Shown in pieces: positions 10,005-28,074 of a stretch of 41,479 bases of DNA. Made by a program: the position numbers and the translations under genes. The notes beneath the pieces are model-generated. The model was not told the origin of the DNA. It did not search any database and worked only from the letters and a program-made list of their open reading frames with translations. Origin of the DNA: Gammaproteobacteria bacterium (GTDB taxonomy: Bacteria > Pseudomonadota > Gammaproteobacteria > Enterobacterales > Kangiellaceae); assembly GCA_013373545.1 (NCBI GenBank), contig JABXHQ010000104.1, positions 1 through 41,479 on the forward strand, in the 5' to 3' direction. How positions within the stretch are numbered: position 1 is the stretch's first letter; the number at the start of each line of letters is the position of its first letter.

Positions 10005-11546
10005 TTATAAAGCAGGACCTGCTTTAATAATGTCATCAGAGACTGTGAACTTTTTAAAGTTCTCAATGAAGAGTTTCGCTAACTCTTGCGCAGCTGCGTC
10101 GTAATTTTCTGGGTTTGCCCAAGTTGATTTTGGATTCAACAAAGCTGGGTCAACACCTTCAACTGCAACCGGTGCTTGCAAGTTCAAGTAAGGAATAGCT
10201 TGGGTTTCAACATCACGTAAAGCTCCCGATTGAATCGCCGTGATAACCGCACGCGTTGTTGGAATGTCAAAACGCTTACCACCATCGCCGTATGGACCGC
10301 CTGTCCAACCCGTATTCACTAAATAAACTTTTGCGTTATTGGCCGCGATACGCTTCATTAATAGTTCAGCATAAACACCAGCTGGACGAGGGAAGAAAGG
10401 CGCACCAAAACAGGTTGAGAAGGTTGATTCAATTGCAGCAGTCGAACCAATTTCGGTTGAGCCGACTTTAGCAGTGTAGCCGCTTAAGAAGTGATAAGCT
10501 GCCGCTTCTTTGCTTAAGATGGAAACTGGAGGTAAAACGCCGGTTAAATCACAAGTTAAGAAGATAATGGCATTCGGCTCACCGGCAGCATTGGCGTCTA
10601 CTTTACGCTCAATGTGATCGCGTGGATATCCGGCGCGTGAGTTTTGAGTTAATGAAACATCGGTGTAATCTGGCGTTCCCTGATCATCCAACACAACATT
10701 TTCAATAATGGTGCCGTGTTTAATGGCATTCCAAATAACCGGCTCATTCTTTTCACTTAGGTCGATACATTTTGCATAGCATCCACCTTCAATATTAAAT
10801 ACGGTGCCTTCACCCCAGCCATGCTCATCGTCACCAATCAAGAAACGATCAGGATCGGCAGACAAGGTTGTTTTACCGGTACCCGATAAACCAAAGAATA
10901 AGGTGACATCACCTTCGCCATCGGTATTAGCCGAGCAATGCATTGGTAATACGTCTTGTGCTGGTAATAAGAAGTTTTGCACAGAGAACATGGCTTTTTT
11001 CATTTCGCCCGCATAACGCATGCCGGCAATTAACACTTTACGCTGTTTGAAGTTGATAATTACACAACCGTAGCTGTTGGTGCCATCACGCTCTGGATCG
11101 CAGCGGAAACCAGCTGCGTTAAGAATTTGCCATTCTGGGCGGTTATCGGGATTGTAGCTATCGACGCGGATAAATAAGTTGCGCGCGAAGAGGTTCTGCC
11201 AAGCGGTTTCAGTGCGTACATTAACCGGTAGAAAATATTCATCTCCGGCACCCACGTGGAGTGTAGACTGAAAATATTCGTCTTGGGTTTCAAGGTGCGT
11301 TGCCACACGATCCCACAGAGCGTTGAACTTATCTTCATCAAAAGGACGGTTTACGTTGCCCCAATCGATGTCATTCTCGGTGGTCTCTTCCTTGACGATG
11401 AAACGATCATTGGGTGAACGTCCCGTTCTTTCTCCTGTTTCCACGGATAATGCGCCATTTGCGGCAATGTTGCCTTCTCCGCGTTCTACGGCTTTGGCAA
11501 CCAGTTCATCTGTGGATAAATTTAAATGCACCTTAGCTTGTGACAT
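10005..11546 (-). CDS. pckA: phosphoenolpyruvate carboxykinase (ATP)
   Basis: PckA converts oxaloacetate and ATP to phosphoenolpyruvate, CO2 and ADP, the entry step to gluconeogenesis from TCA-cycle carbon. In this 513-residue protein the ATP-type signature is clear: TGRSPNDRF (41-49, oxaloacetate-binding arginine), the P-loop [10 protein letters not shown] (219-228), the metal-binding LIGDDEHGW (236-244) and [11 protein letters not shown]. The length is slightly shorter than the E. coli enzyme. A gaggaag RBS lies 7-10 nt before the ATG. Its long upstream region is shared with a divergent CrbR-like regulator, which suggests, but does not prove, that pckA is controlled together with acetate or 3-hydroxybutyrate use. 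Confidence 0.97.
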
Positions 11547-12010
11547 GTGACTACTTCCTCGGGCGTATCGGTTTAGTTCGGCTAAAAAGTGCGCGCGATT
11601 GTATCAGGTTAGATGGGCTAAATCGAGATTTTTATCGGAAAAAAATGAAGAAAAACAGTGAGTTAACGAATAGGGTGTTGTAATTTATTTTCATTATTTG
11701 ACATTAATAGTGAATAACTTTAGCTGCAACAAATTCATCGATAACCTTTGATTCTATGTATAAACAGTAAGTTAGCGGCATTGCTTCGGAATTACATATG
11801 ATGATCGCGACGAAAATACCGCTGCTTATGGCGCTATTTATGTAATTTTATTACATTTATGTTGCTCAATGATCGTCCGCTTAGCGCTGATCGTGGTCGG
11901 TAGACTGGTTGTACTAAAGTATTATTGCCTTCGATTGCCTTTGCCTGAAGATCGGTAGAGAATGGTAGTGAGTCGGGCCGTTGCGTCGAAATTTAGTTTA
12001 AGGGGTGTTG
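11547..12010. promoter_or_regulatory. 464-nt divergent regulatory region between pckA and the CrbR-like gene
   Basis: No plausible gene is present. It must hold promoters for both directions. Visible elements are an AT-rich stretch with TTGACA at 11699-11704 (no good -10 at the right distance), a perfect 7+3+7 palindrome at 11840-11856 (listed separately), a second ATTACATATG near 11791, and TACTAAAGTA at 11912-11921, one base from the palindrome TACTATAGTA found upstream of bdhA. AGGGG at 12001-12005 is the RBS of the regulator. Confidence 0.5.
11840..11856. promoter_or_regulatory. perfect inverted repeat, candidate operator
   Basis: ATGTAAT TTT ATTACAT: two perfect 7-bp arms around a 3-bp spacer, about 155 nt before the CrbR-like start. 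The size and symmetry fit a dimeric regulator site. It has no T-run and is not a terminator. The binding protein is unknown. Confidence 0.4.
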
Positions 12011-12661
12011 ATGAATACACTGAAAATATTAATTGCGGATGATCATCCTTTGTTTCGAGCCGCCTTGATCCAAGCCTTAGGGACCTACTCAACTGCGCTG
12101 GAGATAATAGAAGCCGAAAATCATCAGCAAACCGCAACTGCGATGCAAACCCCGGATCTCGACTTAGCTTTGGTCGATCTTAATATGCCAGGTGAGCAAG
12201 GTATTTTGCATCTATTTGAACTATGCAAACAGCATCCCGACGTTGTTATTGTGGTCATTTCGGGCCACGATGATACGCCCACAATCCATAAAGTGAGACA
12301 GTCGGGAGCCGCCGGCTTTATTACTAAGTCTACTTCAATGCAAAACTTAACCCACGCCATTACTGCCATCATTGAACAGGGTGAGTATTGGCCGGAGTCG
12401 TTTGATAGCGGGGAAGATGCCGCCGAGTACCAAACGCTTAATGCAATTGCCAGTATGACGCCGCAACAAAAGCGTGTACTAGCCATGATTGCTGACGGAA
12501 AATTAAATAAGCAAATTGCTTATGATCTTAACTTACAAGAAACTACCATTAAGCAGCACGTTTCGGCTATTTTACGCAAGCTCAATGTCTACAACCGCAC
12601 TCAAGCAGGATTAATTTATCAACAAGCAACTGAAAGCCATGCCGCGGCAATTAGCGTTTAA
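12011..12661 (+). CDS. crbR: LuxR-type response regulator, CrbR-like
   Basis: A 216-residue NarL/FixJ-type response regulator. The N-terminal receiver has the acid pair (IADDHPLF), phospho-acceptor D56 (LVDLNMPG) and the lysine of GFITKS. The C-terminal helix-turn-helix (about 146-205) starts TPQQKRVLAMIADG and contains NKQIAYDLNLQETTIKQHVS. I start at ATG 12011 rather than GTG 12005 because AGGGG (12001-12005) is correctly spaced only for the ATG. The gene converges on a transporter-type hybrid histidine kinase with a 21-nt gap. That pairing is the arrangement of CrbS/CrbR (MxtR/ErdR in Pseudomonas), which controls acetyl-CoA synthetase and acetate use in Vibrio and Pseudomonas. Orthology is inferred from architecture and context. 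Confidence 0.8.
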   Translation: MNTLKILIADDHPLFRAALIQALGTYSTALEIIEAENHQQTATAMQTPDLDLALVDLNMPGEQGILHLFELCKQHPDVVIVVISGHDDTPTIHKVRQSGAAGFITKSTSMQNLTHAITAIIEQGEYWPESFDSGEDAAEYQTLNAIASMTPQQKRVLAMIADGKLNKQIAYDLNLQETTIKQHVSAILRKLNVYNRTQAGLIYQQATESHAAAISV

Positions 12662-12682
12662 TACGCTGTGTATCAGTGCATT

Positions 12683-15600
12683 TTAAAGTAATGTATTTTT
12701 AATCAGTGCGCGCAACTTCATGGCTTTTATCGGCTTGTAAAGCATCGGAATATTTCGCTCATTTGCCTTGTCTCGCAATCGTTCGCTGCGATCGGCTGTG
12801 AGTAAAAACACAGCACAAGGGTTTTGCTCGGTAACATAATCCATGACCATAAAGCCGGTCTCTTGGTTATCCAAATGATGATCAACCAATAGCAAGTCAA
12901 ATGTCTTTAGGTGTTTCAAGCGCTTAACTTCGGCTAATGAGCGACAAGTGGTAACGGTTGCTCCCCACTGCTCGAGCAGCGTACGCATAGAATGCAAAAT
13001 ATCTTGGTCATTGTCGACGCAAAGCAGTGTTAAATGGTCAAATTGCGCACTGTCATGAGGAGGCACTGGAGCGGTTACCTTATCCTGAAAACTGCGCTCT
13101 ACGAGCGGCGTAGTAACGCTGAAGCAAGATCCTTGCGATAGCTGAGAGCTGACGTTGAGCGGATGTTCAAGCAGGTTGGCGCAACGTGCTGCAATGGCTA
13201 AGCCAAGACCATGCCCAGTCTGGCTGGAGTGTTGATCAACTCGAGTAAACTCTTCAAAAATCTTTGACTGCATCGCCCGTGCTACCCCACAGCCTTGATC
13301 CCACACTGATATTTTTACTTGCTGCTGTTGAACGCGAGCGCCGACGAGAACTTTTCCGTGTTGGCTATAACGGATCGCATTACTGATGTAGTTTTGCAGT
13401 ATCCGCCGTAACAAAGAAGGATCGGACTCAACCACTGCTGAAGTAAAACAAGGTTTCAATTGAATTGATTTTTGCTCGGCGATAACGGCAAACTCATCAC
13501 ACAAGTCTTTAAGTAATGGATACAGCGCAAAGCACTGACGCTTAACGGTTATCACGCCGGCATCCAACTTAGAAATTTCTAGTAAATCGCTGAGCAATTC
13601 ATCGGCAAGATTAAGTGAGCGTTGAATTAAATTAAGTTGCTGCTGCATCTCGCCACTCGGTGTTTTGGCTGAGAGGGCTTGGGTTAATAGCGAGGCGGCG
13701 TTCAATGGTTGCAAAATATCATGACTCGCCGCCGCTAAAAACCGCGTTTTACTTAAGTTGGCTGCGTCCGCTGATTTTTTTGCTAAATCCAATTGTCGAT
13801 TACTGGCCAACAGCTGTTCTGTTCGTTGATTGACTCGATCTTCTAAAGAAGCATTGACTTCAGCGAGTTGCTGTTGCTTTTGTCTTAACTCCGTAATATC
13901 GATAAACACCGTTACAAAACCACCACCCGGCATAGGGTTTCCTTGCACAGTAATGACCCGACCATTGTGTTGTCGTTCAAAGGAATGTGCGCTAGCTTGT
14001 TTAAGATAATTTAAGCGCTTTTCGACCGCGGCTTGTCGATCACTGTCACCGAATAAGCCTTGAGTAGCATTAAAGTAAATAAGATCTTTGATGGGGCGAC
14101 CAACCACGAGTAACTCGTCCGGGTAATTAAATAGCTGTTGATAATGTCGGTTCCAAGCAACCAGTTTTAAGTTGCTATCGATAACACTGATCCCATGCGA
14201 AATGTTTTCCATGGCCGATTGCAATAACTCTCGATTAAATGTAAATACTTGGGTGGCTTCATCAACCATATCTACCACATCTCTTAGTGGTACCGATTTT
14301 TTACCCGTTAGTGTATCCATGATTATTTGTGCGGAAGATCCGCCAATCACACGACTGAGTCGCCGCTGACAAGTTTCGATATCTTGAACCGAAGCAACAA
14401 TAGTATGGGCACTGGCAATTGTTTGCGCATCATAATGACGGTTAATGTAGTCAAAATTTTCAGCCTTTCCAATAAAACGCTCATTCAACTCAAACAAGTC
14501 GGCCAGAGTAACGTGGTTATCATTATAAGCACTGTCGCTGGTTTGACTGAGGGCCTTTGAGCTAACAAATTTCAAAGCTTGTACGCACTCATCTTTAGTC
14601 GCTTGCGTATTAAGTGAAACAAATATAAGCGTTAACGCGTTAAGTAATAGTGACCAAAATACGCCAAGTGTTAAGGAGTCAAAAATAGATGTGTCTAACC
14701 AAAAGCTAGGTGCTAGTTGGGAGAATCCAAACCAGGGACCGCTGTACCAATCGTTAGCTAAATATCCGGCATGACAAAGTGATGGAATAAGTAACAGATA
14801 GGTCCAAGTAATTATGCCGATGAATAAGCCGGCAAAAACACCGCGTTTATTTGCTGGACGCCAATAAACTGCCGCCACAATCGCGGGCGCGAATTGCGCA
14901 ACCAACGAAAACGATAATAAACCTAACGAGGCTAGCTCAAAAGCTGAAGCAATTGTACGGTAGTAGATAAAAGCTAATAGCATCAGGCTAATAATAATTA
15001 ATCGACGCGCCATCAACAGCCAACGTTGGATATTTTGCTTTGGACGACGGTTAATCTTTTGAATGCTCATGGCCAGCGGTAATAGAATATCATTTGAAAT
15101 CATGGTGCTGAGTACAACACTCACAATAATGATCATGCTAGTCGCTGCAGAAAATCCTCCAAGGTAAGCAATTAAAGAAAATAGGGCAGAACCTTCACTG
15201 AGCGGAAATGCCAGAATAAAAGTGTCAGGCGCAACATTTAGCTGGTTAAAATAAATAAGACCGGCAATCGCGATGGGTAGAATAAATAAGTTGATCAGTA
15301 ATAAATAACTGCCGAATATCCAACGTGCGCGACGAACATCGGCTTTCGCTTTATTTTCCACAACCAATACATGAAATTGTCGCGGTAAACAAAAAATAGC
15401 TAGTAAGCCCAATAAGGCATGGACCCAATAGAGCAACGGTGAATAGTTTTGCTGCCACGCCGATTCGATCGATTGTACTTGGGCAGCTTGCTCCAAAAGG
15501 TCGCCAACACCATTAAAAATATAAAAGCAAATGTAAATGCCTAAAGCTAAAAATGCGATAAGTTTAACGACTGATTCGAATGCGACTGCATGAATAATTC

Positions 15601-16165
15601 CGGTTTGATGTTCTGCTGCATCAACGCGACGAGTACCAAAAACGATCGCAAAAAGACCCATTAATAAGCTAATGTATAATGCTGCGTCTTGCAGTATGCC
15701 ACTTGGAGCATCGATAGGATTTTGGCCAGTGGTAGTTAATAATGCATAGGATATTGTTAGTGCTTTGAGCTGTAAGGCAATGTAGGGAACTAAAGCAATG
15801 AAAGCAATTAGAGTGATGGTTGCGGCTAACAATTGCGACTTACCAAATCGAGAAGAAATAAAATCAGCAATTGACGTTATATTATTCTGACGACCAACAC
15901 TGACCAATTTACTGAGAAAACGCCAGCCAAAAAATAGCAATATCAATGCGCCAATATAGGTCGGAGCAAAATACCAGCCGGTACTTGCCGCTTGTGCAAT
16001 GGTGCCAAAGAAAGCCCAGCTAGTACAAAATATTGCTAACGATAAGGAGTAGATCCAGGTGTTATGTTTGGCTGATGTTTTCCTTTGTTCGAAAAAATAA
16101 GCAATTGCAAACAGTAGTGCAATATAAATAAGCGAGCAGAAAATTATTAGCCAGCTGGAAATCAA
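12683..16165 (-). CDS. crbS: sodium/solute-symporter-type hybrid histidine kinase, CrbS-like
   Basis: A 1160-residue protein. Residues 1 to about 520 form a complete SLC5/SSS (PutP-like) transporter domain with about 13 membrane helices. A cytoplasmic linker of the STAC type (about 525-640) follows, then a PAS domain (about 645-760), a coiled coil (760-800), HisKA with H815 (AASHDILQPLNAAS), HATPase with N929 and GTGHGLGL-type G2 box (SQTGHGLGLA, 981-990), and a C-terminal receiver with D1051/D1053, phospho-acceptor D1095 and K1144. This is the CrbS/MxtR architecture. In the family the transporter domain is thought to couple a substrate or its transport to signalling; the signal here is unknown. 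It lies downstream of a GntP permease on the same strand (95-nt gap), so the two may be co-transcribed. Confidence 0.88.
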   Translation of the reverse strand: MISSWLIIFCSLIYIALLFAIAYFFEQRKTSAKHNTWIYSLSLAIFCTSWAFFGTIAQAASTGWYFAPTYIGALILLFFGWRFLSKLVSVGRQNNITSIADFISSRFGKSQLLAATITLIAFIALVPYIALQLKALTISYALLTTTGQNPIDAPSGILQDAALYISLLMGLFAIVFGTRRVDAAEHQTGIIHAVAFESVVKLIAFLALGIYICFYIFNGVGDLLEQAAQVQSIESAWQQNYSPLLYWVHALLGLLAIFCLPRQFHVLVVENKAKADVRRARWIFGSYLLLINLFILPIAIAGLIYFNQLNVAPDTFILAFPLSEGSALFSLIAYLGGFSAATSMIIIVSVVLSTMISNDILLPLAMSIQKINRRPKQNIQRWLLMARRLIIISLMLLAFIYYRTIASAFELASLGLLSFSLVAQFAPAIVAAVYWRPANKRGVFAGLFIGIITWTYLLLIPSLCHAGYLANDWYSGPWFGFSQLAPSFWLDTSIFDSLTLGVFWSLLLNALTLIFVSLNTQATKDECVQALKFVSSKALSQTSDSAYNDNHVTLADLFELNERFIGKAENFDYINRHYDAQTIASAHTIVASVQDIETCQRRLSRVIGGSSAQIIMDTLTGKKSVPLRDVVDMVDEATQVFTFNRELLQSAMENISHGISVIDSNLKLVAWNRHYQQLFNYPDELLVVGRPIKDLIYFNATQGLFGDSDRQAAVEKRLNYLKQASAHSFERQHNGRVITVQGNPMPGGGFVTVFIDITELRQKQQQLAEVNASLEDRVNQRTEQLLASNRQLDLAKKSADAANLSKTRFLAAASHDILQPLNAASLLTQALSAKTPSGEMQQQLNLIQRSLNLADELLSDLLEISKLDAGVITVKRQCFALYPLLKDLCDEFAVIAEQKSIQLKPCFTSAVVESDPSLLRRILQNYISNAIRYSQHGKVLVGARVQQQQVKISVWDQGCGVARAMQSKIFEEFTRVDQHSSQTGHGLGLAIAARCANLLEHPLNVSSQLSQGSCFSVTTPLVERSFQDKVTAPVPPHDSAQFDHLTLLCVDNDQDILHSMRTLLEQWGATVTTCRSLAEVKRLKHLKTFDLLLVDHHLDNQETGFMVMDYVTEQNPCAVFLLTADRSERLRDKANERNIPMLYKPIKAMKLRALIKNTLL

Positions 16166-16260: not shown

Positions 16261-17556
16261 TTAAAGAATAAATATGGCTAATGCAAGTGCTAATCCGATC
16301 AAGGGTGTGACCACCGTCAGGGCAGCCATTGGACCATAGGCGGCGCGATGGGTTTCACCACAGATTGCGCGAATCGTGGTCACAACGTAGCCGTTGTGGG
16401 GCAGCGAATCAAGCGCACCACTGGCAATGGCGACCACGCGGTGAAGTTGCTCGGGATCGACGCCAGCATCAAGATAATGCGGTGCTAGCACGGGTAACGC
16501 GATGGCTTGTCCGCCAGACGCAGAACCGGTTAGTCCAGCAATAACACTCACGGCGATGGCTGCTCCAATCAGTTCGTTTCCCGGGATAGAGGTCATGGTT
16601 TCTACGGCGACAGCAAATGCGGGTGACGCTTTTGCCACTGTGCCAAAGCCAACCACGGCTGCAGTATTCCCGATCGCGAGTAACGCACCCGTGGTACCTT
16701 CCCCGAGCGCTTTGTTTAAATCGTGAACAAAGTTTAAATTGATGATCCAAGCACAAATGCTGCCAGCGAGTAGTGCAAGGATCAGAGCGTTTTGTTTTAA
16801 TGAATCATGAAATAAATAAGCAATCACCAAAACCACAATTAATGGGAGTAAGCCTTTTATTGGATGTGGTAACCGTTGCTGGCGCGGTTTTGGATCGGTG
16901 TCTCGACTCGCAAACCGCTCGCCATTTTGGACCGCTTTGCGGATCATTTTATTTAACCACCAGTAGCCAAATAACGCCATGAACACAGCCACCACTAAAC
17001 TTACTTCCCAAGCTGCCATATGAGTCGTACCCAAATACTTGACTGGGATCCAATTCTGAATTTCTGGTGATCCCGCCGAGGTCATGGTAAATGTCACTGA
17101 GCCAAAAGCCATTGTCGCTGGAATAAAGCGCCGCGGAAGATCGCCTTCTCGAAATAGTGCGAGGGCCATGGGGTAGACTGAAAATGCAACAACAAATAAA
17201 CTGACGCCTCCATAAGTTAATACGGCGCAGGAAATCACAATCGCGAGCGCTGCGTATTTAGCGCCTAACTTAGCGACTAAAAAATGTGAAACGCTTTGCG
17301 CGCAACCGGTATCTTCCATGACTTTGCCGAATAGTGAACCTAGTAAAAACATTAAGAACCAAGACTGTACAAAACCAGCAAATCCGCTTGAGTAGAAATG
17401 TATAAACGATTGCTCGCCCACGGTTAATAATTCGAGTCCTCCACACAGGGCGACAATAAGCGCACACAATGGTGCGGCGATTAGTAAGTTCATACCACGT
17501 ATGGTTAAGATTATGAGCAGGGTGAGCCCACCGATTAAACCAACAAGACTGAGCAT
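16261..17556 (-). CDS. GntP family organic acid permease
   Basis: A 431-residue inner-membrane carrier with about 12 hydrophobic segments. It matches the GntP/gluconate:H+ symporter family: an N-terminal GLIGGLTLLIILTIRG, a conserved FLLGSLFGKVMEDTG (75-89), central TSAGSPEIQNW, and a C-terminal GSASGGQAIALPVL and DSLPHNGYVVTT. Members import gluconate, and some family members are annotated as D-beta-hydroxybutyrate permeases next to bdhA. In this window, with 3HB hydrolase and dehydrogenase nearby and a CrbS-like kinase just downstream, a short organic acid such as 3-hydroxybutyrate is a better guess than gluconate, since no gluconate kinase is seen. A taagg RBS precedes the ATG. Confidence 0.88.
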   Translation of the reverse strand: MLSLVGLIGGLTLLIILTIRGMNLLIAAPLCALIVALCGGLELLTVGEQSFIHFYSSGFAGFVQSWFLMFLLGSLFGKVMEDTGCAQSVSHFLVAKLGAKYAALAIVISCAVLTYGGVSLFVVAFSVYPMALALFREGDLPRRFIPATMAFGSVTFTMTSAGSPEIQNWIPVKYLGTTHMAAWEVSLVVAVFMALFGYWWLNKMIRKAVQNGERFASRDTDPKPRQQRLPHPIKGLLPLIVVLVIAYLFHDSLKQNALILALLAGSICAWIINLNFVHDLNKALGEGTTGALLAIGNTAAVVGFGTVAKASPAFAVAVETMTSIPGNELIGAAIAVSVIAGLTGSASGGQAIALPVLAPHYLDAGVDPEQLHRVVAIASGALDSLPHNGYVVTTIRAICGETHRAAYGPMAALTVVTPLIGLALALAIFIL

Positions 17557-20066: not shown

Positions 20067-20090
20067 AGCCCGCTTAGTGCGGGCTTTTTT
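20067..20090 (+). terminator. intrinsic terminator of the TonB-dependent receptor gene
   Basis: AGCCCGC (20067-20073), loop TTAGT, GCGGGCT (20079-20085) and a run of six T. Its 15-base core is the exact reverse complement of the core of the next hairpin. Confidence 0.92.
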
Positions 20091-20136: not shown

Positions 20137-21189
20137 TTAACGAAAACTGTCGTTAATGGCGTCTAAGGTTTTACTGCCCGGACAGAGTTTGTCTTTATCG
20201 AGTTGATTCAAAGGGGTCGTTGTTGTCCCTAAGAGTTCATGTGTATCAGGTGTTTGCGGGTTAAGGTATAGTAAACCCGTTAATACTTCACCTTTTTCTT
20301 TGTGCTTTTCAATTTCATTCATAGCGCTACGACGGCTGCTGAAATCGAGTGACTCAGTCGCTTTATGTAAACGAACCGCGCTACCATCATGAAGGGTAAT
20401 TTCTTCCGTTTGTCCCGGTTCATACTCGGTGGTAATTTCTTCTTTTAACGGAACAAAGTCAAAGGTACCGGTCGCATTCATATGTTCGCGAACATGGTCA
20501 TAACTTTTGGTTGAGTTAGCGGTGTTGTTAAAGGTTACGCATGGGCTCACAACATCGATTAAGGCAAAACCACGATGTGAAACAGCTGCTTTAATAAGTG
20601 GAATTAATTGTTCCTTATCACCCGAGAATGAACGCGCTACAAAACCAGCTCCTAACTGTATAGCGGTTTCACATAAATCGATACTTGAGTAAGGATTTGG
20701 AATGCCTTTCTTACTGGCTGACCCACGGTCGGCGGTTGCTGAGTCTTGACCCTTGGTGAGTCCATAACAACCATTGTTCATGACAATGTAAACCATATTA
20801 AGGTTACGACGCACGACATGTGCAAATTGACCCATGCCAATTGAAGCCGTGTCTCCGTCACCCGAAACGCCAATGTAAACTAAATCTCGGTTCGCTAGGT
20901 TGGCACCAGTTGCAACTGACGGCATGCGGCCATGAACTGAGTTAAAACCATGAGAGTTGCCAAGAAAGTAGGCGGGGGTTTTCGATGAACAACCTATTCC
21001 AGACATTTTCGCAACTTTGTGCGGCTCAATAGAAAGTTCAAAACAAGACTGCAAAATGGCCGCGCTGATACTATCGTGACCGCAACCGGCACATAAAGTC
21101 GATAACGCACCTTCATAGTTCGCTCGTGTATAACCCAGATCATTAACCGCAAGTTGCGGATGTCGAATATTAGGACGAATAAAACTCAT
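20137..21189 (-). CDS. korB: 2-oxoacid:acceptor oxidoreductase, beta (TPP-binding) subunit
   Basis: The 350-residue beta subunit of an OFOR-type enzyme, which decarboxylates a 2-oxoacid with CoA and passes electrons to ferredoxin or a similar acceptor. It shows the cluster cysteines C33 and C36 (LCAGCGHD), C67 (GIGCSSK) and C217 (VSPCVTF) for the proximal [4Fe-4S], the HGR motif (86-88), and the TPP/Mg motif GDGD (110-113) with NNGCYGLTKGQ (138-148). The C-terminal 90 residues are typical of KorB-like proteins. It follows korA by 5 nt and ends at a terminator. 2-Oxoglutarate is the likeliest substrate from the KorB-like layout, but pyruvate or another 2-oxoacid is possible. Confidence 0.9.
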   Translation of the reverse strand: MSFIRPNIRHPQLAVNDLGYTRANYEGALSTLCAGCGHDSISAAILQSCFELSIEPHKVAKMSGIGCSSKTPAYFLGNSHGFNSVHGRMPSVATGANLANRDLVYIGVSGDGDTASIGMGQFAHVVRRNLNMVYIVMNNGCYGLTKGQDSATADRGSASKKGIPNPYSSIDLCETAIQLGAGFVARSFSGDKEQLIPLIKAAVSHRGFALIDVVSPCVTFNNTANSTKSYDHVREHMNATGTFDFVPLKEEITTEYEPGQTEEITLHDGSAVRLHKATESLDFSSRRSAMNEIEKHKEKGEVLTGLLYLNPQTPDTHELLGTTTTPLNQLDKDKLCPGSKTLDAINDSFR

Positions 21190-21194
21190 AATAA

Positions 21195-23039
21195 CTATCC
21201 TCGATCCGCTTGCTGTAACGGAGTTACTTTGTTCTGGTTAATCGTGGCTTCAATCTGTTCAACGATATAGGTTGCAGTGATTGGCATGCCGTCGTAATTC
21301 AACACCGATGTAAGGCGAGCCGGATCCAATTGCAATTCGTTGACTAACAAAGTTTTCATTTGCCCATCACGATTTTGTTCGATGACAAAGATGGTGTCAT
21401 GCTGAGCAATAAACGCTTCCACCTCAGCGGTAAACGGAAAAGCTTTAATTTGCAGTCCATTAACACTGACGTTTTGCTGTTGCATTAAGTCAATTGCTTC
21501 ATGTGCTGCATCAGTTGAGGTTCCAAAGAAAATAGCACCGACTTTGCTTTGTTTATTCTCGATGCGGATATTCGGCTTAGGCACCAGTGTTTTCGCCGTG
21601 TCCCATTTTTTCTCTAGTCGCTGCATCGAGCGTACATAAGCTTCCGAACTCTCAGTATAAGCAGCGTACTCATCGTGGGAAGAACCACGCGTAAAGTAAC
21701 TTCCTTTGGTTGGATGAGTTCCCGGAATTGTCCGGTAGCCAATACCTTCGCCGTCAACATCGAGATAACGTCCCCAGCGTTCTTTTAGGTTTTCTAGCTC
21801 ATCGGTAGACAGTACTTTGCCGCGGTTATAATCGATTTCATCATTCCACTCGAAAGCGTCACACATGTTGTCGTTCATTCCGAGATCTAAGTCACTTAAA
21901 ATAATTACCGGTGTTTGTAAGTATTCGGTTAATTCAAAAGCGTTGAACGACATGTCGAAACATTCTTTTGGATTTGCCGGATAAAGACACACATGCTTAG
22001 TGTCGCCATGCGAAGCGTAAGCGGCGGCCATAATATCCGACTGCTGTGTTCGCGTTGGCATACCCGTGGAAGGACCGGTTCGTTGCACATCGACTAACAC
22101 GCCTGGAATTTCTGCAAAATAGGCGAGGCCGAGAAATTCAGCCATTAACGAAACGCCGGGGCCAGAGGTTGCGGTAAATGCGCGAGCACCATTCCAGCTG
22201 GCGCCTAACACCATTCCCATTGCGGCAAGCTCGTCTTCAGCCTGAACAATGGCAAAATTGTTCATGCCATTGGCTGGGTCAACGCGCAGTCGTTTGCAGT
22301 ATTTTTCAAAAGCATCGACAACCGAAGTGGATGGAGTGATTGGATACCAGCCAGCAACGGTGGCTCCAGCATAAATGGCGCCGAGCGCGGTACCGGTATT
22401 TCCGTCGACTAAGATTTTACCTTGATTCAAATCGCGGCGTTCTATCTTTAATTGACATGTTTCGGCGTAATATTCTTTTGCGTAGCGATAGCCTAACTCG
22501 AGCGCATGGATATTCGGCGTGATGAGTTTTTCTTTACCTTTGAATTGGTCTTGAACTAATTCGGCAAAGACTTCAAATTCTATATTCAATAGGTAGGATA
22601 GGGCGCCCACATAAATGATATTTTTAAATAATTGGCGTTGACGCGGATCGGTGTATTCTTGAATGCAAATATCCGTTAACGGAATGCCGATTAAATGTAT
22701 ATCATCGCGTTTATATTTTGGCGCTAACGGCTTACTGTTGTCATATAAAAAATAACCACCCGGCAACACTTCTTGGAAATCTTGCATCATGGTTTGACCG
22801 TTTGTGGCGACCATAAAGTCAACACCACCGCGGCGTCCTAGGTAACCTTTTTCACTGACCCGAACTTCATACCAAGTGGGTAGTCCCTGAATATTCGAAG
22901 GGAAAATATTTTTCGGAGTAACCGGTACGCCAGAGCGAAAAATCGATTTGGCAAACATGTTGTTTGCACTCGCCGAACCGGTTCCATTGATATTGGCAAA
23001 TTTTATGACAAAATCGTTTACTGCTGCTATTTTGTGCAT
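21195..23039 (-). CDS. korA: 2-oxoacid:acceptor oxidoreductase, fused gamma-alpha subunit
   Basis: A 614-residue subunit in which the gamma domain (about 10-195; GTGSASANNMFAKSIFRSG, GRRGGVDFMVA) precedes the pyrimidine-binding alpha domain (about 205-590), the fusion order seen in KorA-type enzymes. Alpha-domain marks are YPITPSTS (232-239), QAEDE with E268, TSGPG (291-295) and RTGPSTGMPTRTQQSD (320-335), the motif that positions CoA and the 2-oxoacid. Its ATG lies inside the end of the upstream flavoprotein gene (13-nt overlap), which implies coupled translation and fixed stoichiometry. No pyruvate-specific features are evident. Function with KorB is certain from layout; substrate is not. 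Confidence 0.92.
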   Translation of the reverse strand: MHKIAAVNDFVIKFANINGTGSASANNMFAKSIFRSGVPVTPKNIFPSNIQGLPTWYEVRVSEKGYLGRRGGVDFMVATNGQTMMQDFQEVLPGGYFLYDNSKPLAPKYKRDDIHLIGIPLTDICIQEYTDPRQRQLFKNIIYVGALSYLLNIEFEVFAELVQDQFKGKEKLITPNIHALELGYRYAKEYYAETCQLKIERRDLNQGKILVDGNTGTALGAIYAGATVAGWYPITPSTSVVDAFEKYCKRLRVDPANGMNNFAIVQAEDELAAMGMVLGASWNGARAFTATSGPGVSLMAEFLGLAYFAEIPGVLVDVQRTGPSTGMPTRTQQSDIMAAAYASHGDTKHVCLYPANPKECFDMSFNAFELTEYLQTPVIILSDLDLGMNDNMCDAFEWNDEIDYNRGKVLSTDELENLKERWGRYLDVDGEGIGYRTIPGTHPTKGSYFTRGSSHDEYAAYTESSEAYVRSMQRLEKKWDTAKTLVPKPNIRIENKQSKVGAIFFGTSTDAAHEAIDLMQQQNVSVNGLQIKAFPFTAEVEAFIAQHDTIFVIEQNRDGQMKTLLVNELQLDPARLTSVLNYDGMPITATYIVEQIEATINQNKVTPLQQADRG

Positions 23040-24829
23040 GGTGTAACGGCCTCTTTATCTTGTCCGGCTTTGGTAACGGTGTATAAAAATTTCTGCATAT
23101 CCCAAGCAGACGTTGGGCAGCGCTCAGCGCACAGTCCGCAATGTAAACAAACATTCTCGTCTTTCACCATAACGCGACCCGTTTTTAAGTCACTGGAAAC
23201 ATAAAGGTCTTGTTCAGCGTTAGTGGCGGGGGCTTTGAGTCGCTCTCGAAGATCCGACTCCTCACCATTATTGGTAAAGTTAATGCAGTCGGTCGGGCAG
23301 ATGTCGACACATGCATCACATTCGATACACTTATTCTCGGTAAATACTGTTTGTACATCACAGTTCAAGCAACGTTCAGCTTCGTCGTAGGCTTGTTGTA
23401 AATCAAAGCCAAGTTCCACTTCCATTTTACGATCGGAAAGCGCTGCGGTCTTGTCGGCCAAAGGCACAATAAAGCGATCATCATCAGAAACCGCGTTATC
23501 GTAGGTCCACTCATGAAATCCCATTTTTTGGGTGAGCAAGTTGGTGCCTGGCGCAGGGCGCTCGGTAACATCTTGTCCCTGACAAAAACGGTCGATGGAA
23601 ATGGCTGCCTGATGACCATGAGCAACAGCGGTAATAACATTCTCTGGGCCAAAAGCTGCATCGCCGCCGAAAAAGACTTTATCGAGGGTCGATTGGAAAG
23701 TGGTCTTGTCAACAATTGGCATATCCCACTCACCAAACTCAACGCCTAAATCGCGTTCGATCCAAGGAAATGCATTCTCTTGCCCAATCGCCATTAATAC
23801 GTCATCGCACTCCATGAATACAATTTCACCGGTTGGCTCTAAGCGACGCTTCCCATTTTCGTCGTAGTGAGGCTCAACGACTTCAAAATTCATTCCGACA
23901 AGGCGACCATTCTCGGTGACAAATTCTTTTGGTGAATGATTTTCATAAATTGGAATATCTTCGTGCTCAGCATCTTCAATTTCCCAAGGCGATGCTTTCA
24001 TTTCGCTTTTTGGACTGCGCACGACTACTCGCACGTCTTTACCACCAATTCGTTTTGAAGTTCGACAGCAATCCATCGCGGTATTACCACCGCCCAACAC
24101 CAAGACTTTTTCGCCGATGGTTTTGGTGTGTTCAAACGCGACATTGGCAAGCCATTCAATACCTACATGAATGTTAGCGTCGCCGTCTTCTCGGCCAGGC
24201 AGTTTGGCTAGGTCGCGACCACGCGGAGCACCCGTGCCAATAAAGATAGCGTCATAACCTTTATCGACAATTGACTTGAGACTATCAACGTATTGATCGA
24301 AATGCGCGTTGATACCCATATCAAGAATATAATTGACCTCTTCATCGAGCACACTTTCAGGCAAACGAAAGGAAGGGATTTGGCTGCGCATAAAACCACC
24401 GCCTTTGCGCTGCGCATCGTATAAATCGATACTGTAGCCAAGCGGAGCCAAGTCACGAGCAACCGTAAGTGAAGCTGGGCCACCGCCAATGAGTGCCACG
24501 CGTTTACCATTTTTCTGCTCTGGAATAACCGGCATGCGGTGCTTTACGTCATCTTTATTGTCAGCGGCTACACGCTTGAGGCGACAAATAGCGACCGGTT
24601 CTTCATCGACCCGTCCACGACGGCAGGCGGGTTCACAGGGGCGGTCACAAGTTCGGCCCAGTACGCCTGGAAAAACATTCGATTCCCAATTAATCATGTA
24701 AGCGTCGGAATAACGGCCGCGGGCGATTAATCGGATGTACTCGGGGACCGGTGTGTGCGCGGGACACGCATACTGGCAATCAACCACCTTATGAAAATAT
24801 TCGGGGTTGGAGATGTCTGTTGGTTTCAC
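23027..24829 (-). CDS. GltD-like NAD(P)/FAD oxidoreductase fused to a 2[4Fe-4S] ferredoxin domain
   Basis: A 600-residue flavoprotein and first gene of the kor operon. An N-terminal iron-sulfur segment has C18, C22, C61, C65 and C69, as in the glutamate synthase small subunit. An FAD fold (GGGPAS, 115-120) and an NAD(P) fold (GGGNTAMD, 246-253) follow, and GGDAAFGPENVITAVAHG (388-405) closes the flavin domain. The C-terminus carries a two-cluster ferredoxin: C501-C504-C507-C511 and C561-C564-C567-C571, with extra cysteines at 487, 490 and 515. It can plausibly carry electrons between KorAB and NAD(P)H. The start is GTG with an aggaag RBS about 9 nt upstream. A 251-nt spacer before it must hold the operon promoter; I see no convincing boxes there. 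Confidence 0.85.
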   Translation of the reverse strand: MKPTDISNPEYFHKVVDCQYACPAHTPVPEYIRLIARGRYSDAYMINWESNVFPGVLGRTCDRPCEPACRRGRVDEEPVAICRLKRVAADNKDDVKHRMPVIPEQKNGKRVALIGGGPASLTVARDLAPLGYSIDLYDAQRKGGGFMRSQIPSFRLPESVLDEEVNYILDMGINAHFDQYVDSLKSIVDKGYDAIFIGTGAPRGRDLAKLPGREDGDANIHVGIEWLANVAFEHTKTIGEKVLVLGGGNTAMDCCRTSKRIGGKDVRVVVRSPKSEMKASPWEIEDAEHEDIPIYENHSPKEFVTENGRLVGMNFEVVEPHYDENGKRRLEPTGEIVFMECDDVLMAIGQENAFPWIERDLGVEFGEWDMPIVDKTTFQSTLDKVFFGGDAAFGPENVITAVAHGHQAAISIDRFCQGQDVTERPAPGTNLLTQKMGFHEWTYDNAVSDDDRFIVPLADKTAALSDRKMEVELGFDLQQAYDEAERCLNCDVQTVFTENKCIECDACVDICPTDCINFTNNGEESDLRERLKAPATNAEQDLYVSSDLKTGRVMVKDENVCLHCGLCAERCPTSAWDMQKFLYTVTKAGQDKEAVTPCTK

Positions 24830-25080
24830 TCGTACTTTCTTCCTTTACTTCTTTTATTGTATTTCTTAGTCGGGGGAGCAACTAAATTGGCGCCTGTATA
24901 GCGCAGGCTCAATTCGTAACAACTTTGCTACCCTAACTTTCCTTAGCCTCCTTTTATCATATTTTTTATGCGATGAATATTCCGACCAGTAAGCTTGTTT
25001 AACTCATCAAGTTATAAAGAACTGGCTGGGCTTTAGAACCACCTCGGTTGTGTTAGCCAAAGCCGCATCAAGTCAGTGCC

Positions 25081-27141
25081 CTAATCGGTTGAATTATGCT
25101 CAATTCGGTGCCAGCTAAGTCCCTCTGCAGTTGCGCTAAAGTGCCATTTTGCGGCGCTGAAAGGCGGTAAGTGATCGGATTCTAGCGGCTCCAATTGACC
25201 GTTTTTGAGCGCGCGGGTGCGGGTTTCAACAATGCCGGAGGGTGGCAAGGCTCGGTGCTCAAAATGGTGCTGCCACAAGCTTGTCATGGCTGCTTCAAAA
25301 TAACCATGCAATGGCACTAAAGTTTGGTTGTATGGTGGATAGGCGAGCAGTGCATCGAAATGCTGTCCATGGCTAATTTCGTAGTAGCGTAGGTTTGAAT
25401 TGTTGCGCTGCTGCATTTGCTGCTTCCAGTAATAAGGGCGGGAGGTTTGATTGACCAATAACAAGCGGTCGGCTTGGCCATGAACAATGATGGTCGGCGT
25501 CGATTGTAAGTTACCGCTGAACTGAATCTCTTGAACGCCTTGTCGCAACCGGTTGATTAAGTTTGGCGACAAGTGCGCACTAAACTCTGTGGCAAGTGGC
25601 TCAGTGCCAAGCGCCCACGCACCGTAACAAAAGGTCTGAGCTACATTTGTTGGGTAAGCGGCAAATTTCGGCCAACGCTTTTGAATATTGAAATAAGTGC
25701 TCGGCACAATATCCGCGGTCGGCGGAATGCCGCTGCTTAAAGCCCATACTTTGGCTAGCTGGATGTCGTTTAGTTGATTAACGCTGGTAGTGGGGGAGTT
25801 TTGAAAGGCACTACCACAGGGATCGTCAAAAAGTTTTAAGCGGGCATAAGCCGAAGAGTAAGTGGCATTAAGTGCATCCCATAATCCCATGGCGGTATAA
25901 ACCGGGCCGAGTCCGCGAGCGCCCGGGTTTAAGCCATAATCGGTGAGGTTCTGTTCTGCCTTAGCCGCTGCCTCTGCAATCGAAGTGGCAGTGATTAACT
26001 TAGCTTTGATAAGCCATGTGCACGCCTGTGCTGCTTGTTTTTTAAATACCAAGGTGCTGGGTAGCTCCGGTATGACTTGCCAATTGGCGCAAGGGGTGAA
26101 TAAGCTTTGCCGCACAAAAGAGTTGAAGGTTGGCTCTAGAGTAATCGATTGCCTAGCTGTGGCGCTGGTAACTGAGAAAGTTGCGGCGCTCATTGATAGG
26201 TTCGGCTCGCCGGCCATAGTGGCATCAATTAAGCCTGTTGTATCTTGCTCGGTCGCTGCAATCACAGCTCCACCGGCATTTGATATGCCGGCGGCCATTA
26301 CCCAAACTTGTTGCTTGGTAAATTTTCTACCGAAATGATCGCTTAATGCGCGAAGACCGAGATCCGCTGCAATTAAAGTGAATTTCCCCCAATCCTTTTG
26401 GCTATTGGTGGTTGAGTGGGCATGCCGAGTAGCGACCCAATTACCGGGGGTTTTGGGAAGTTTTTCGGTGTTGACCCAGCCAGGATTCTGCTGCGTGATC
26501 TGGCCATCGAGAATTAGCTGTTTGCTGGATTCTAGAAAGTAAAACCCACTGCCAGTTCCTTTATCGGTGTAACTCACCGCACAGCCTTTGCTGAGCGCCC
26601 AAAATCCAGTAACGCCAACCGCTCCGTAAACATTGCGCGACCCAGAAGAGGGGGACACCACTAAGCACGGCCGCTGTTGATTAAATGTTGCCGGAATTTG
26701 CACCGCAATCACGGCGCTGGTGCGCCCGGCTTCGCTAGCGGTAGTGGCGAGGTATTCGACACCTGGCACCGGTTTTAAAGGGTGAGCGTACAGACGGTTA
26801 AAGCCACCTGCGCTGGATGTGTCAAGTAGAGCTCTTATATTGGTGTAGTAAGCCAGAGCGCGTGGCTTAGTGGCCGGTGGAGCAATCGAACTTTGCAATT
26901 GCTCTGGAGTCAATCCAGCGGTCAATAGGTCGTCATTGACTGGACGCCGAAACTTTTGCCAGGGCTTAGCAAGCTGATACTGGAGAGTGCTGTGCCCATT
27001 CTTTGTCTGATCGGCTGGTTGCGCTAATGCCTGGTCTGCAAAAGCCGGTTGGGTGAGTACCGGGCAGGCCAATAGGGCAAGTAACAGTCCTTGTCCAATC
27101 ATTCTTGGGTTTAGCTTGGCAGAGTTAAGCGATAGGTTCAT
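25081..27141 (-). CDS. secreted D-(-)-3-hydroxybutyrate oligomer hydrolase
   Basis: This enzyme hydrolyses water-soluble oligomers of 3-hydroxybutyrate to monomer, completing poly-3-hydroxybutyrate breakdown. The protein (686 residues) matches the 3HB-oligomer hydrolase family (PF10605): YTDKGTGSGFYFLES, the nucleophile elbow GISNAGG with likely catalytic S287, GEPNLSMSAATF, HGQADRLL, and the C-terminal SHGQHFDALLAYPPYNQ that should carry the catalytic histidine. I start at ATG 27141 because aagg lies 6 nt before it and it gives a clean signal peptide cut after AFA (residue 35); an upstream ATG at 27174 has no RBS. It is divergent from bdhA, the next enzyme in the pathway. No PHB depolymerase or synthase is seen. 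Confidence 0.92.
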   Translation of the reverse strand: MNLSLNSAKLNPRMIGQGLLLALLACPVLTQPAFADQALAQPADQTKNGHSTLQYQLAKPWQKFRRPVNDDLLTAGLTPEQLQSSIAPPATKPRALAYYTNIRALLDTSSAGGFNRLYAHPLKPVPGVEYLATTASEAGRTSAVIAVQIPATFNQQRPCLVVSPSSGSRNVYGAVGVTGFWALSKGCAVSYTDKGTGSGFYFLESSKQLILDGQITQQNPGWVNTEKLPKTPGNWVATRHAHSTTNSQKDWGKFTLIAADLGLRALSDHFGRKFTKQQVWVMAAGISNAGGAVIAATEQDTTGLIDATMAGEPNLSMSAATFSVTSATARQSITLEPTFNSFVRQSLFTPCANWQVIPELPSTLVFKKQAAQACTWLIKAKLITATSIAEAAAKAEQNLTDYGLNPGARGLGPVYTAMGLWDALNATYSSAYARLKLFDDPCGSAFQNSPTTSVNQLNDIQLAKVWALSSGIPPTADIVPSTYFNIQKRWPKFAAYPTNVAQTFCYGAWALGTEPLATEFSAHLSPNLINRLRQGVQEIQFSGNLQSTPTIIVHGQADRLLLVNQTSRPYYWKQQMQQRNNSNLRYYEISHGQHFDALLAYPPYNQTLVPLHGYFEAAMTSLWQHHFEHRALPPSGIVETRTRALKNGQLEPLESDHLPPFSAAKWHFSATAEGLSWHRIEHNSTD

Positions 27142-27236
27142 GGGATACCTTAAAATGAAAGCGGCTAAGTGCATGCTAAAAAAAGATTAACATCATTGCA
27201 GGAGAGTCTAAATAGAATCGGCGCCAACGGCGTTAA

Positions 27237-27315: not shown

Positions 27316-28074
27316 ATGAGCAAGCAAGCGGTATTAGTGACCGGTGCTGGAAGTGGAATTGGCCTTGGTATTGCCGAGTTTTTTGCGCAACGTAATTACC
27401 AAGTAATTGTTACTGATCGCAGTGTTGAGTCGTTATCTCAAGCACAACAGCAGCTGGCGCAGCATGATTGTCAATTTTATTGTCTCGATGTTACGTCACA
27501 GTCTTCGGTAAACGAGCTGATGCAAAACCTTGAGCGCGGGCCCGACATTCTAATTAATAACGCCGGTATTCAACATGTCGCTCGGCTGGAAGATTTCCCT
27601 ATGGAGCAATGGCAGCGCTTATTGGAGATTATGCTGGTTGGCGTAGCGCGGGTAACCCAAGCGTTCTTGCCAACTATGAAAACGCAGAACTTTGGTCGAA
27701 TCATTAACATTGGCTCATTGCATTCAGTCGTTGCGTCACCGTATAAAACGGCTTATATCGCAGCGAAACATGGGTTGTTAGGTTTTGCAAAGTCGTTAGC
27801 ACTTGAAGTGGCAGAACATGACATAACTATCAATACCGTTTGTCCGGCTTATGTGCGCACTCCGCTCGTCAGTGATCAAATTGCCCAGCAAGCTGCGCAA
27901 CATGGCATTTCCGAACAAGCCGTGGTGGAAACCATTATGTTAAAGCCGATGCCGAAAAAATCGTTTATCGAGGTTGCCGAAATTGCAGCGGCGTGTGAGT
28001 ACTTTTGTCAGCCGCTGGCGCGTAATGTGACGGCACAAACCTTGTTGCTCGATGGCGGTTGGACCGCGCAATAA
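27316..28074 (+). CDS. bdhA: 3-hydroxybutyrate dehydrogenase
   Basis: A 252-residue short-chain dehydrogenase that oxidises D-3-hydroxybutyrate to acetoacetate with NAD+. The Rossmann motif TGAGSGIG (9-16), NNAG (81-84), and the catalytic S134, Y147 and K151 are present. Substrate-binding residues known from Pseudomonas HBDH are kept: Q86 (NNAGIQH), H136, K144, Q188 and the C-terminal GGWTA. The fourth member of the usual SDR tetrad, asparagine, is methionine here (M106, EIMLVG); this may be a clade trait of one 3HBDH group. The ATG has only weak RBS. The gene is divergent from the oligomer hydrolase and ends 6 nt before ispB on the other strand. Confidence 0.9.
   Translation: MSKQAVLVTGAGSGIGLGIAEFFAQRNYQVIVTDRSVESLSQAQQQLAQHDCQFYCLDVTSQSSVNELMQNLERGPDILINNAGIQHVARLEDFPMEQWQRLLEIMLVGVARVTQAFLPTMKTQNFGRIINIGSLHSVVASPYKTAYIAAKHGLLGFAKSLALEVAEHDITINTVCPAYVRTPLVSDQIAQQAAQHGISEQAVVETIMLKPMPKKSFIEVAEIAAACEYFCQPLARNVTAQTLLLDGGWTAQ

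Follow-up and report, generated by a model that had tools for sequence, protein, structure and literature searches.

Results

The window analysed here is a stretch of 41,479 nucleotides (nt), contig JABXHQ010000104.1 of assembly GCA_013373545.1, from a gammaproteobacterium of the family Kangiellaceae. On its minus strand we find three genes arranged head to tail, and the open reading frame (ORF) calls place them exactly where a preliminary description of this DNA had put three overlapping or nearly touching Kor-type genes. The first gene, korC (23027..24829), starts with GTG and encodes an iron-sulfur (Fe-S) flavoprotein of 600 residues (66.9 kDa), which we name KorC. It overlaps by 13 nt with korA (21195..23039), encoding the gamma-alpha fusion of a 2-oxoacid:acceptor oxidoreductase (614 residues, 68.4 kDa). 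After a gap of 5 nt follows korB (20137..21189) for the beta subunit with its thiamine diphosphate (ThDP) and [4Fe-4S] sites (350 residues, 37.7 kDa); all masses are calculated from the sequence. The Pfam domains agree with this assignment. KorA shows POR (the gamma part, 19-184) and POR_N (220-383), KorB shows TPP_enzyme_C and is without a ferredoxin domain, while KorC combines Fer4_20 (17-93), Pyr_redox_2 (110-405) and a Fer4_7 dicluster (500-575). We consider it quite probable that the three products together are a self-contained three-subunit 2-oxoglutarate:NAD(P)+ oxidoreductase, KorCAB, most likely NADP-linked and working in the oxidative direction.

KorA passes the cut-off of the NCBIfam family TIGR03710 clearly (572 vs 482.75 bits). 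Its YPITP motif at position 232 is present in 48 of the 49 aligned rows and Arg320 in every one of them, and the window protein has both. In KorB, the cluster ligands Cys33, Cys36 and Cys67 are found in 49/49 rows and Cys217 in 48/49, the remaining row having a gap; all four are present in the window protein. The ThDP motif GDGD (at 110), Lys70 and Leu144 are each conserved throughout the 49 rows. Judged by its ligands, KorB is the carrier of a single [4Fe-4S] cluster. Among full-length solved relatives, 6n2n is the best match to KorA; it is the one which we take to be the 2-oxoglutarate-specific enzyme of Magnetococcus marinus and which shares its KorA/KorB architecture with the window KorAB. 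Both this Magnetococcus KorAB and the M. tuberculosis 2-oxoglutarate oxidoreductase presumably hand their electrons to free ferredoxin, and neither is known to possess a KorC. By alignment, the conserved KorA and KorB residues correspond to those studied in the 2-oxoacid:ferredoxin oxidoreductase (OFOR) of S. tokodaii, as covered in part of PMC5020499.

KorC resembles NfnB, GltD and DsrL in having an N-terminal Fe-S domain followed by domains for flavin adenine dinucleotide (FAD) and NAD(P). The layout proposed earlier, with an Fe-S N-terminus, FAD and NAD(P) folds and a C-terminal 2[4Fe-4S] ferredoxin, is thereby borne out, except that the N-terminal segment, described as GltD-like, is missing the leading CxxC pair of GltD and NfnB. 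KorC further differs from these two by its C-terminal 2[4Fe-4S] domain, which DsrL also possesses, and it lacks the YRR motif of NfnB. Unlike NfnB, GltD and DsrL, it accompanies KorAB in the 30 genomes in which it was found. Altogether 19 cysteines were checked in 44 rows, of which 18 are invariant and one, Cys515, is present in 42. Cys18, 22, 61, 65, 69 and 82 belong to the N-terminal segment, while Cys501, 504, 507, 511, 515, 561, 564, 567 and 571 line the C-terminal ferredoxin domain. Behind the FAD and NAD(P) domains we see another invariant motif, R-C487-L-N-C490, and these two cysteines likely replace the missing N-terminal pair. Residues 469-493 of KorC align with residues 24-48 of the NfnI chain 5jca, a short match that is weak when taken alone (i-Evalue 19); these 5jca residues sit just ahead of the part that matches KorC from residue 17 onwards. 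A late-placed CxxC motif also occurs in the solved chains 9bov and 8oh5, named molybdopterin oxidoreductase and formate dehydrogenase. NfnB uses a Glu as a ligand, according to a section of PMC7596348. By our by-eye alignment, Lys85 of KorC would take the place of this Glu, with Cys82 one helix turn earlier.

KorC stays under the cut-off in all 25 NCBIfam families listed (of 51), the top one being PRK12771 (391.9 vs 516). As a GltD it fails in TIGR01316 (261.7 vs 471.75), TIGR01318 (202.7 vs 482.95) and TIGR01317 (160.8 vs 447.7), and the adjoining genes encode KorA and KorB, not the large subunit that belongs to GltD. A bifurcating Nfn was rejected as well: Pfam gives no small-subunit domain for a second FAD and a [2Fe-2S] cluster, the neighbours are KorA and a 3-hydroxybutyrate-oligomer hydrolase, and YRR is absent.

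We analysed the co-occurrence of the three genes in 369 Gammaproteobacteria genomes, using thresholds of E<=1e-150 for KorC and E<=1e-60 for KorA. KorC was detected in 30 genomes (about 8%) and KorA in 32, namely these 30 plus G104 and G265. The latter two possess only a distant KorA with 31-32% identity, and a KorA of this distant sort also occurs in G213. KorA of the window clade (E<=2.6e-198) is found in exactly the 30 KorC genomes. KorC and KorA are adjacent on the same strand in 29 of them, with -10 to 163 nt between the match ends, and in the remaining genome, G161, they lie at two contig ends. KorB comes next after KorA in 30/30 genomes. The linkage that the preliminary description had proposed to look for is hence seen at the gene level. 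The triad genomes share ancestry (30 genomes from 24 genera), and a Fisher value is therefore not readable as a probability. Moreover, the distance matrices of the subunits correlate with r = 0.87-0.90 (43 triads), and none of 1000 permutations gave an equally high value.

Beyond this sample, we collected 19 loci from named genomes, 17 found via KorA plus two on plasmids. The order C-A-B on one strand is kept in 17 of the 19, including L010, in which KorC is cut by the contig end. The L017 contig starts within KorA, and the order there is unreadable. The archaeal contig L018 carries a KorAB of only 42/54% identity and no KorC within 13.8 kb. At L011, a stretch of about 1.9 kb that contains two ORFs comes between KorA and KorB. 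The same gene order, with 50-91% identity depending on the subunit, appears in records titled Gammaproteobacteria, Betaproteobacteria, Bacteroidota and Kiritimatiellales. Because relatives of the same order exist in records titled with several phyla, the arrangement is not a product of chance. The nearest named triads are those of Pleionea (81-91% by subunit) and of a Gammaproteobacteria metagenome-assembled genome (MAG; 86-91%). In the KorC tree, a quick search with many open forks and with the Shimodaira-Hasegawa-like approximate likelihood ratio test (SH-aLRT) as its only branch support, the Bacteroidota- and Kiritimatiellales-titled rows are placed among proteobacterial ones, which fits a transfer of the whole module. 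As a side observation, KorB of L017 (a 'Deltaproteobacteria' MAG) matches at 1434-2810 in two pieces (1-201 and 191-350) about 290 nt apart, either an insertion or an assembly oddity.

Upstream of korC follows an intergenic region (24830..25080, minus strand), which presumably contains the korC promoter but gave no match to a sigma-70-like site. Behind it lie the gene of the 3-hydroxybutyrate-oligomer hydrolase (25081-27174, minus strand; PF10605, 404.5 bits) and that of a short-chain dehydrogenase/reductase (SDR) of the 3-hydroxybutyrate dehydrogenase type (27316-28074, plus strand; TIGR01963, above cut-off). Further neighbours are a GntP-type permease (16261-17556) and pckA (10005-11546). 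At 12005-16165 we find a convergent pair, both members being under their family cut-offs: an ErdR-like response regulator on the plus strand and a hybrid histidine kinase of 1160 residues, near the NahK/ErcS group, on the minus strand. Pairs of the ErdR/ErcS type control the use of acetate and ethanol. Pleionea mediterranea (L003) likewise carries hydrolase and SDR homologues upstream of its triad. They were not seen at L004 and L016, where the triad is situated between ispB-like and pckA homologues. At L009 (Porticoccaceae), an acyl-CoA synthetase with the N-terminal domain of acetyl-CoA synthetase is encoded 233 nt upstream. No neighbour outside the triad is common to most of the 50 loci: the widest ORF cluster comprises 6 loci and the next one, of SDR type, 5, while the other neighbour families are lineage-specific. 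Between korB and a convergent TonB-receptor-type gene lies a terminator-like hairpin (20067..20085, plus strand; 7 pairs with a T tail), which is weak evidence given that the region has fewer matches of this sort (3) than its shuffled versions have on average (6.2).

The window is contig 33 of its host genome (3.63 Mb, 99% complete), in which one POR-domain match was obtained. This genome encodes a full-length 2-oxoglutarate dehydrogenase E1 component (1317 bits), zwf and a CoA-transferase of the pcaI/scoA family. Its sole match to PF00463 (57.5 bits; Pfam cut-off 26) covers only 151-245 of 526. We reject it as isocitrate lyase; it is the methylisocitrate lyase PrpB (542 vs 353 bits), encoded beside the methylcitrate synthase gene. 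Malate synthase (PF01274) was not found in the host genome in a search in which 6 of 14 controls matched. Despite pckA and the 3-hydroxybutyrate genes, the host seems to have no glyoxylate shunt, and without isocitrate lyase and malate synthase it needs another route for the assimilation of C2 units.

Discussion

From the order of the parts we infer how the electrons would travel through a KorCAB complex. KorAB would decarboxylate 2-oxoglutarate on ThDP to give succinyl-CoA, and the two electrons would exit via the single [4Fe-4S] cluster of KorB to the C-terminal ferredoxin domain of KorC. From there they could pass through the N-terminal Fe-S clusters to FAD and finally on to NADP+ at the second Rossmann domain. 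Such an enzyme would work oxidatively and get around 2-oxoglutarate dehydrogenase without any need for lipoate. It would yield NADPH, or reduced ferredoxin where this is required, and it is probably used while the cells grow on C2- or ketone-type substrates. That it helps to oxidise C2 units derived from ketone-type substrates is a reasonable guess by analogy, but no more than that. In an aerobe, the M. tuberculosis 2-oxoglutarate oxidoreductase operates oxidatively and is tied to beta-oxidation, as stated in parts of PMC2773412.

An enzyme of this kind was already reported from another bacterium in 2003, and korCAB is most likely a well-preserved further example of it and not a new system. 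The view that the system is under-described is fair for the sequences, but not for the enzyme. In that year, Ebenau-Jehle, Boll and Fuchs reportedly described a 2-oxoglutarate:NADP+ oxidoreductase (KGOR) of Azoarcus (Aromatoleum) evansii with three subunits of ~63, 62 and 37 kDa, compared to 66.9, 68.4 and 37.7 kDa here. It is said to contain FAD, ThDP and Fe-S clusters, to be specific for 2-oxoglutarate and to reduce NADP+ and viologens, but not NAD+; its N-terminal sequences reportedly resembled three adjacent Bradyrhizobium genes. If these reported features hold, the window triad matches this kind of enzyme in the respects tested, the two being compared by description. The settings differ: the A. 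evansii enzyme serves anaerobic aromatic degradation, while the KorCAB host has 2-oxoglutarate dehydrogenase E1 and, nearby, 3-hydroxybutyrate genes. Both enzymes have an Fe-S flavoprotein subunit of the GltD/NfnB family, which here is encoded beside KorAB; for the A. evansii enzyme, a passage of PMC10134865 assigns the alpha subunit to the GltD/NfnB/DsrL family. Together with the linkage of the triad, this biochemical precedent makes an NAD(P)-coupled OFOR, as suggested in the preliminary description, the best reading. A limited literature search (including portions of PMC9765128, PMC12151479, PMC8307300 and PMC8163825) gave no account of the triad in aerobic heterotrophs, though one may exist elsewhere.

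Several observations nevertheless weigh against an NADP-linked 2-oxoglutarate oxidoreductase. The top NCBIfam of KorB is TIGR02177 (PorB_KorB) with 207.9 bits, under the cut-off of 261.9; this cut-off is the mark of a curated subfamily, so that the shortfall weakens the name PorB_KorB and not the enzyme type. Among solved chains, KorB comes closest to the broad-specificity S. tokodaii enzyme (1.1e-45), followed by 6n2n (2.6e-42), and Lys70 and Leu144 match residues of the former. Asp468 of the S. tokodaii OFOR is required for 2-oxoglutarate, and one 2-oxoglutarate-specific enzyme has Leu there (both from part of PMC5020499); KorCAB rows have Ser, Thr or Ala at this position. Additionally, E1 is kept in the host and in 27 of the 30 triad genomes, which leaves the need for the triad unexplained. 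We nonetheless regard it as rather unlikely that KorCAB chiefly converts another 2-oxoacid, be it pyruvate, 2-oxobutyrate, a branched-chain acid or a broad set. The top full-length relative of KorA, 6n2n, presumably is 2-oxoglutarate-specific, and three triad genomes of 97-99% completeness, G176, G314 and G368, are without E1, a gap that the triad could fill. In these three it may indeed replace E1; G314 shows only a 21.7-bit fragment, and G091, labelled as the same genus, has E1. A general replacement of 2-oxoglutarate dehydrogenase was rejected, the E1 counts going in the opposite sense (27/30 vs 280/369 overall, p = 0.07). Regarding the coenzyme, NfnB binds the 2'-phosphate of NADP by its YRR motif, as given in part of PMC7596348. 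This motif is missing from all 44 KorC rows, which contain VRS (34, among them the window protein), ARK (7), IRT, LRT and ARR (1 each). By the rule in that part of PMC7596348, VRS is nearer to NAD-type DsrL, likewise without YRR. A complex coupled to NAD+, which would make NADH as 2-oxoglutarate dehydrogenase does but without lipoate, is still unlikely. Arg271 in the NAD(P) domain is conserved in 44/44 rows and no acidic residue is found there, the eight ARK/ARR rows form a separate group split off by one branch (SH-aLRT 100), and the A. evansii enzyme is named as NADP+-linked. In the Emticicia lineage, all four loci (L005-L008) have the triad 129-130 nt downstream of pntA1-pntA2-pntB, which encode both subunits of NAD(P) transhydrogenase; since this is one lineage, the linkage probably represents one event. 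Because of the invariant Arg271 and these transhydrogenase genes, NADP is the likely coenzyme of KorC. Two further points stand on the opposing side. The zwf gene is not rarer in triad genomes (19/30 vs 201/369 overall, Fisher p = 0.34), giving no sign that the triad substitutes another NADPH source, and its replacement of the oxidative pentose route in this role was rejected. The AlphaFold2 model of KorC is poor, with a mean predicted local distance difference test score (pLDDT) of 59.9 and values <50 for residues 433-600 (15-row alignment).

The electrons could also flow differently. The preliminary description saw an enzyme able to run either way, perhaps as a reductive carboxylase of succinyl-CoA or acetyl-CoA; such CO2 fixation would have to draw on NADPH or ferredoxin. 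OFORs are reversible in principle, and the lack of a malate synthase match, together with an isocitrate-lyase-family match that is only methylisocitrate lyase, calls for another C2 route; these missing glyoxylate shunt genes keep a reductive enzyme barely alive as an idea. However, with about -0.5 V for 2-oxoglutarate/succinyl-CoA + CO2 and -0.32 V for NADP, the reaction is uphill from NADPH. The host has, like most triad genomes, a full E1, and we saw no sign of a reductive cycle, with ATP-citrate lyase matching in 0/30 triad genomes but in no control either. We hence consider this direction highly improbable. The same low credence goes to a special form of it, in which KorCAB, in heterotrophs without glyoxylate shunt, carboxylates acetyl-CoA or succinyl-CoA using ferredoxin electrons while the flavin branch is checked by NADP(H). 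If this were true, ferredoxin-driven KorCAB would be a hidden CO2-fixing step during growth on 3-hydroxybutyrate or acetate. Finally, as has been proposed for relatives, KorCAB might feed low-potential electrons to benzoyl-CoA reductase or nitrogenase. The T. aromatica KorAB supplies benzoyl-CoA reductase via ferredoxin, according to excerpts of PMC9973337 and PMC2984482, and four of the 30 genomes with the triad have nifH. This gene was not found (E<=1e-30) in the host genome nor in 26/30, which led us to discard nitrogenase feeding; benzoyl-CoA reductase was not searched for. A dedicated supply of this type is very unlikely.

Read as an oxidative, NADP-linked 2-oxoglutarate oxidoreductase, KorCAB has consequences beyond this locus. 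To our knowledge, a 2-oxoglutarate oxidoreductase with an NAD(P) outlet is known only from one study on anaerobic aromatics. Here it would be a compact module in about one twelfth of the sampled Gammaproteobacteria genomes, plus Bacteroidota- and Kiritimatiellales-titled contigs. It mostly coexists with 2-oxoglutarate dehydrogenase E1. Why such cells would maintain a second way of turning 2-oxoglutarate into succinyl-CoA is a testable physiological question.

A related triad is carried by plasmid 2 of Aromatoleum aromaticum EbN1 (EBN1_RS21825-21835), with the same order C-A-B and 64/59/60% identity. Its surroundings differ from those in the window: the neighbouring genes are for acyl-CoA dehydrogenases, for another FAD protein and for conjugation (trb). 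The annotation is generic only, naming the subunits 'FAD-dependent oxidoreductase' and '2-oxoacid:ferredoxin oxidoreductase', and metabolic models built on annotations of this style may consequently route the electrons to ferredoxin instead of NADPH. The plasmid itself (L020) was typed as conjugative.

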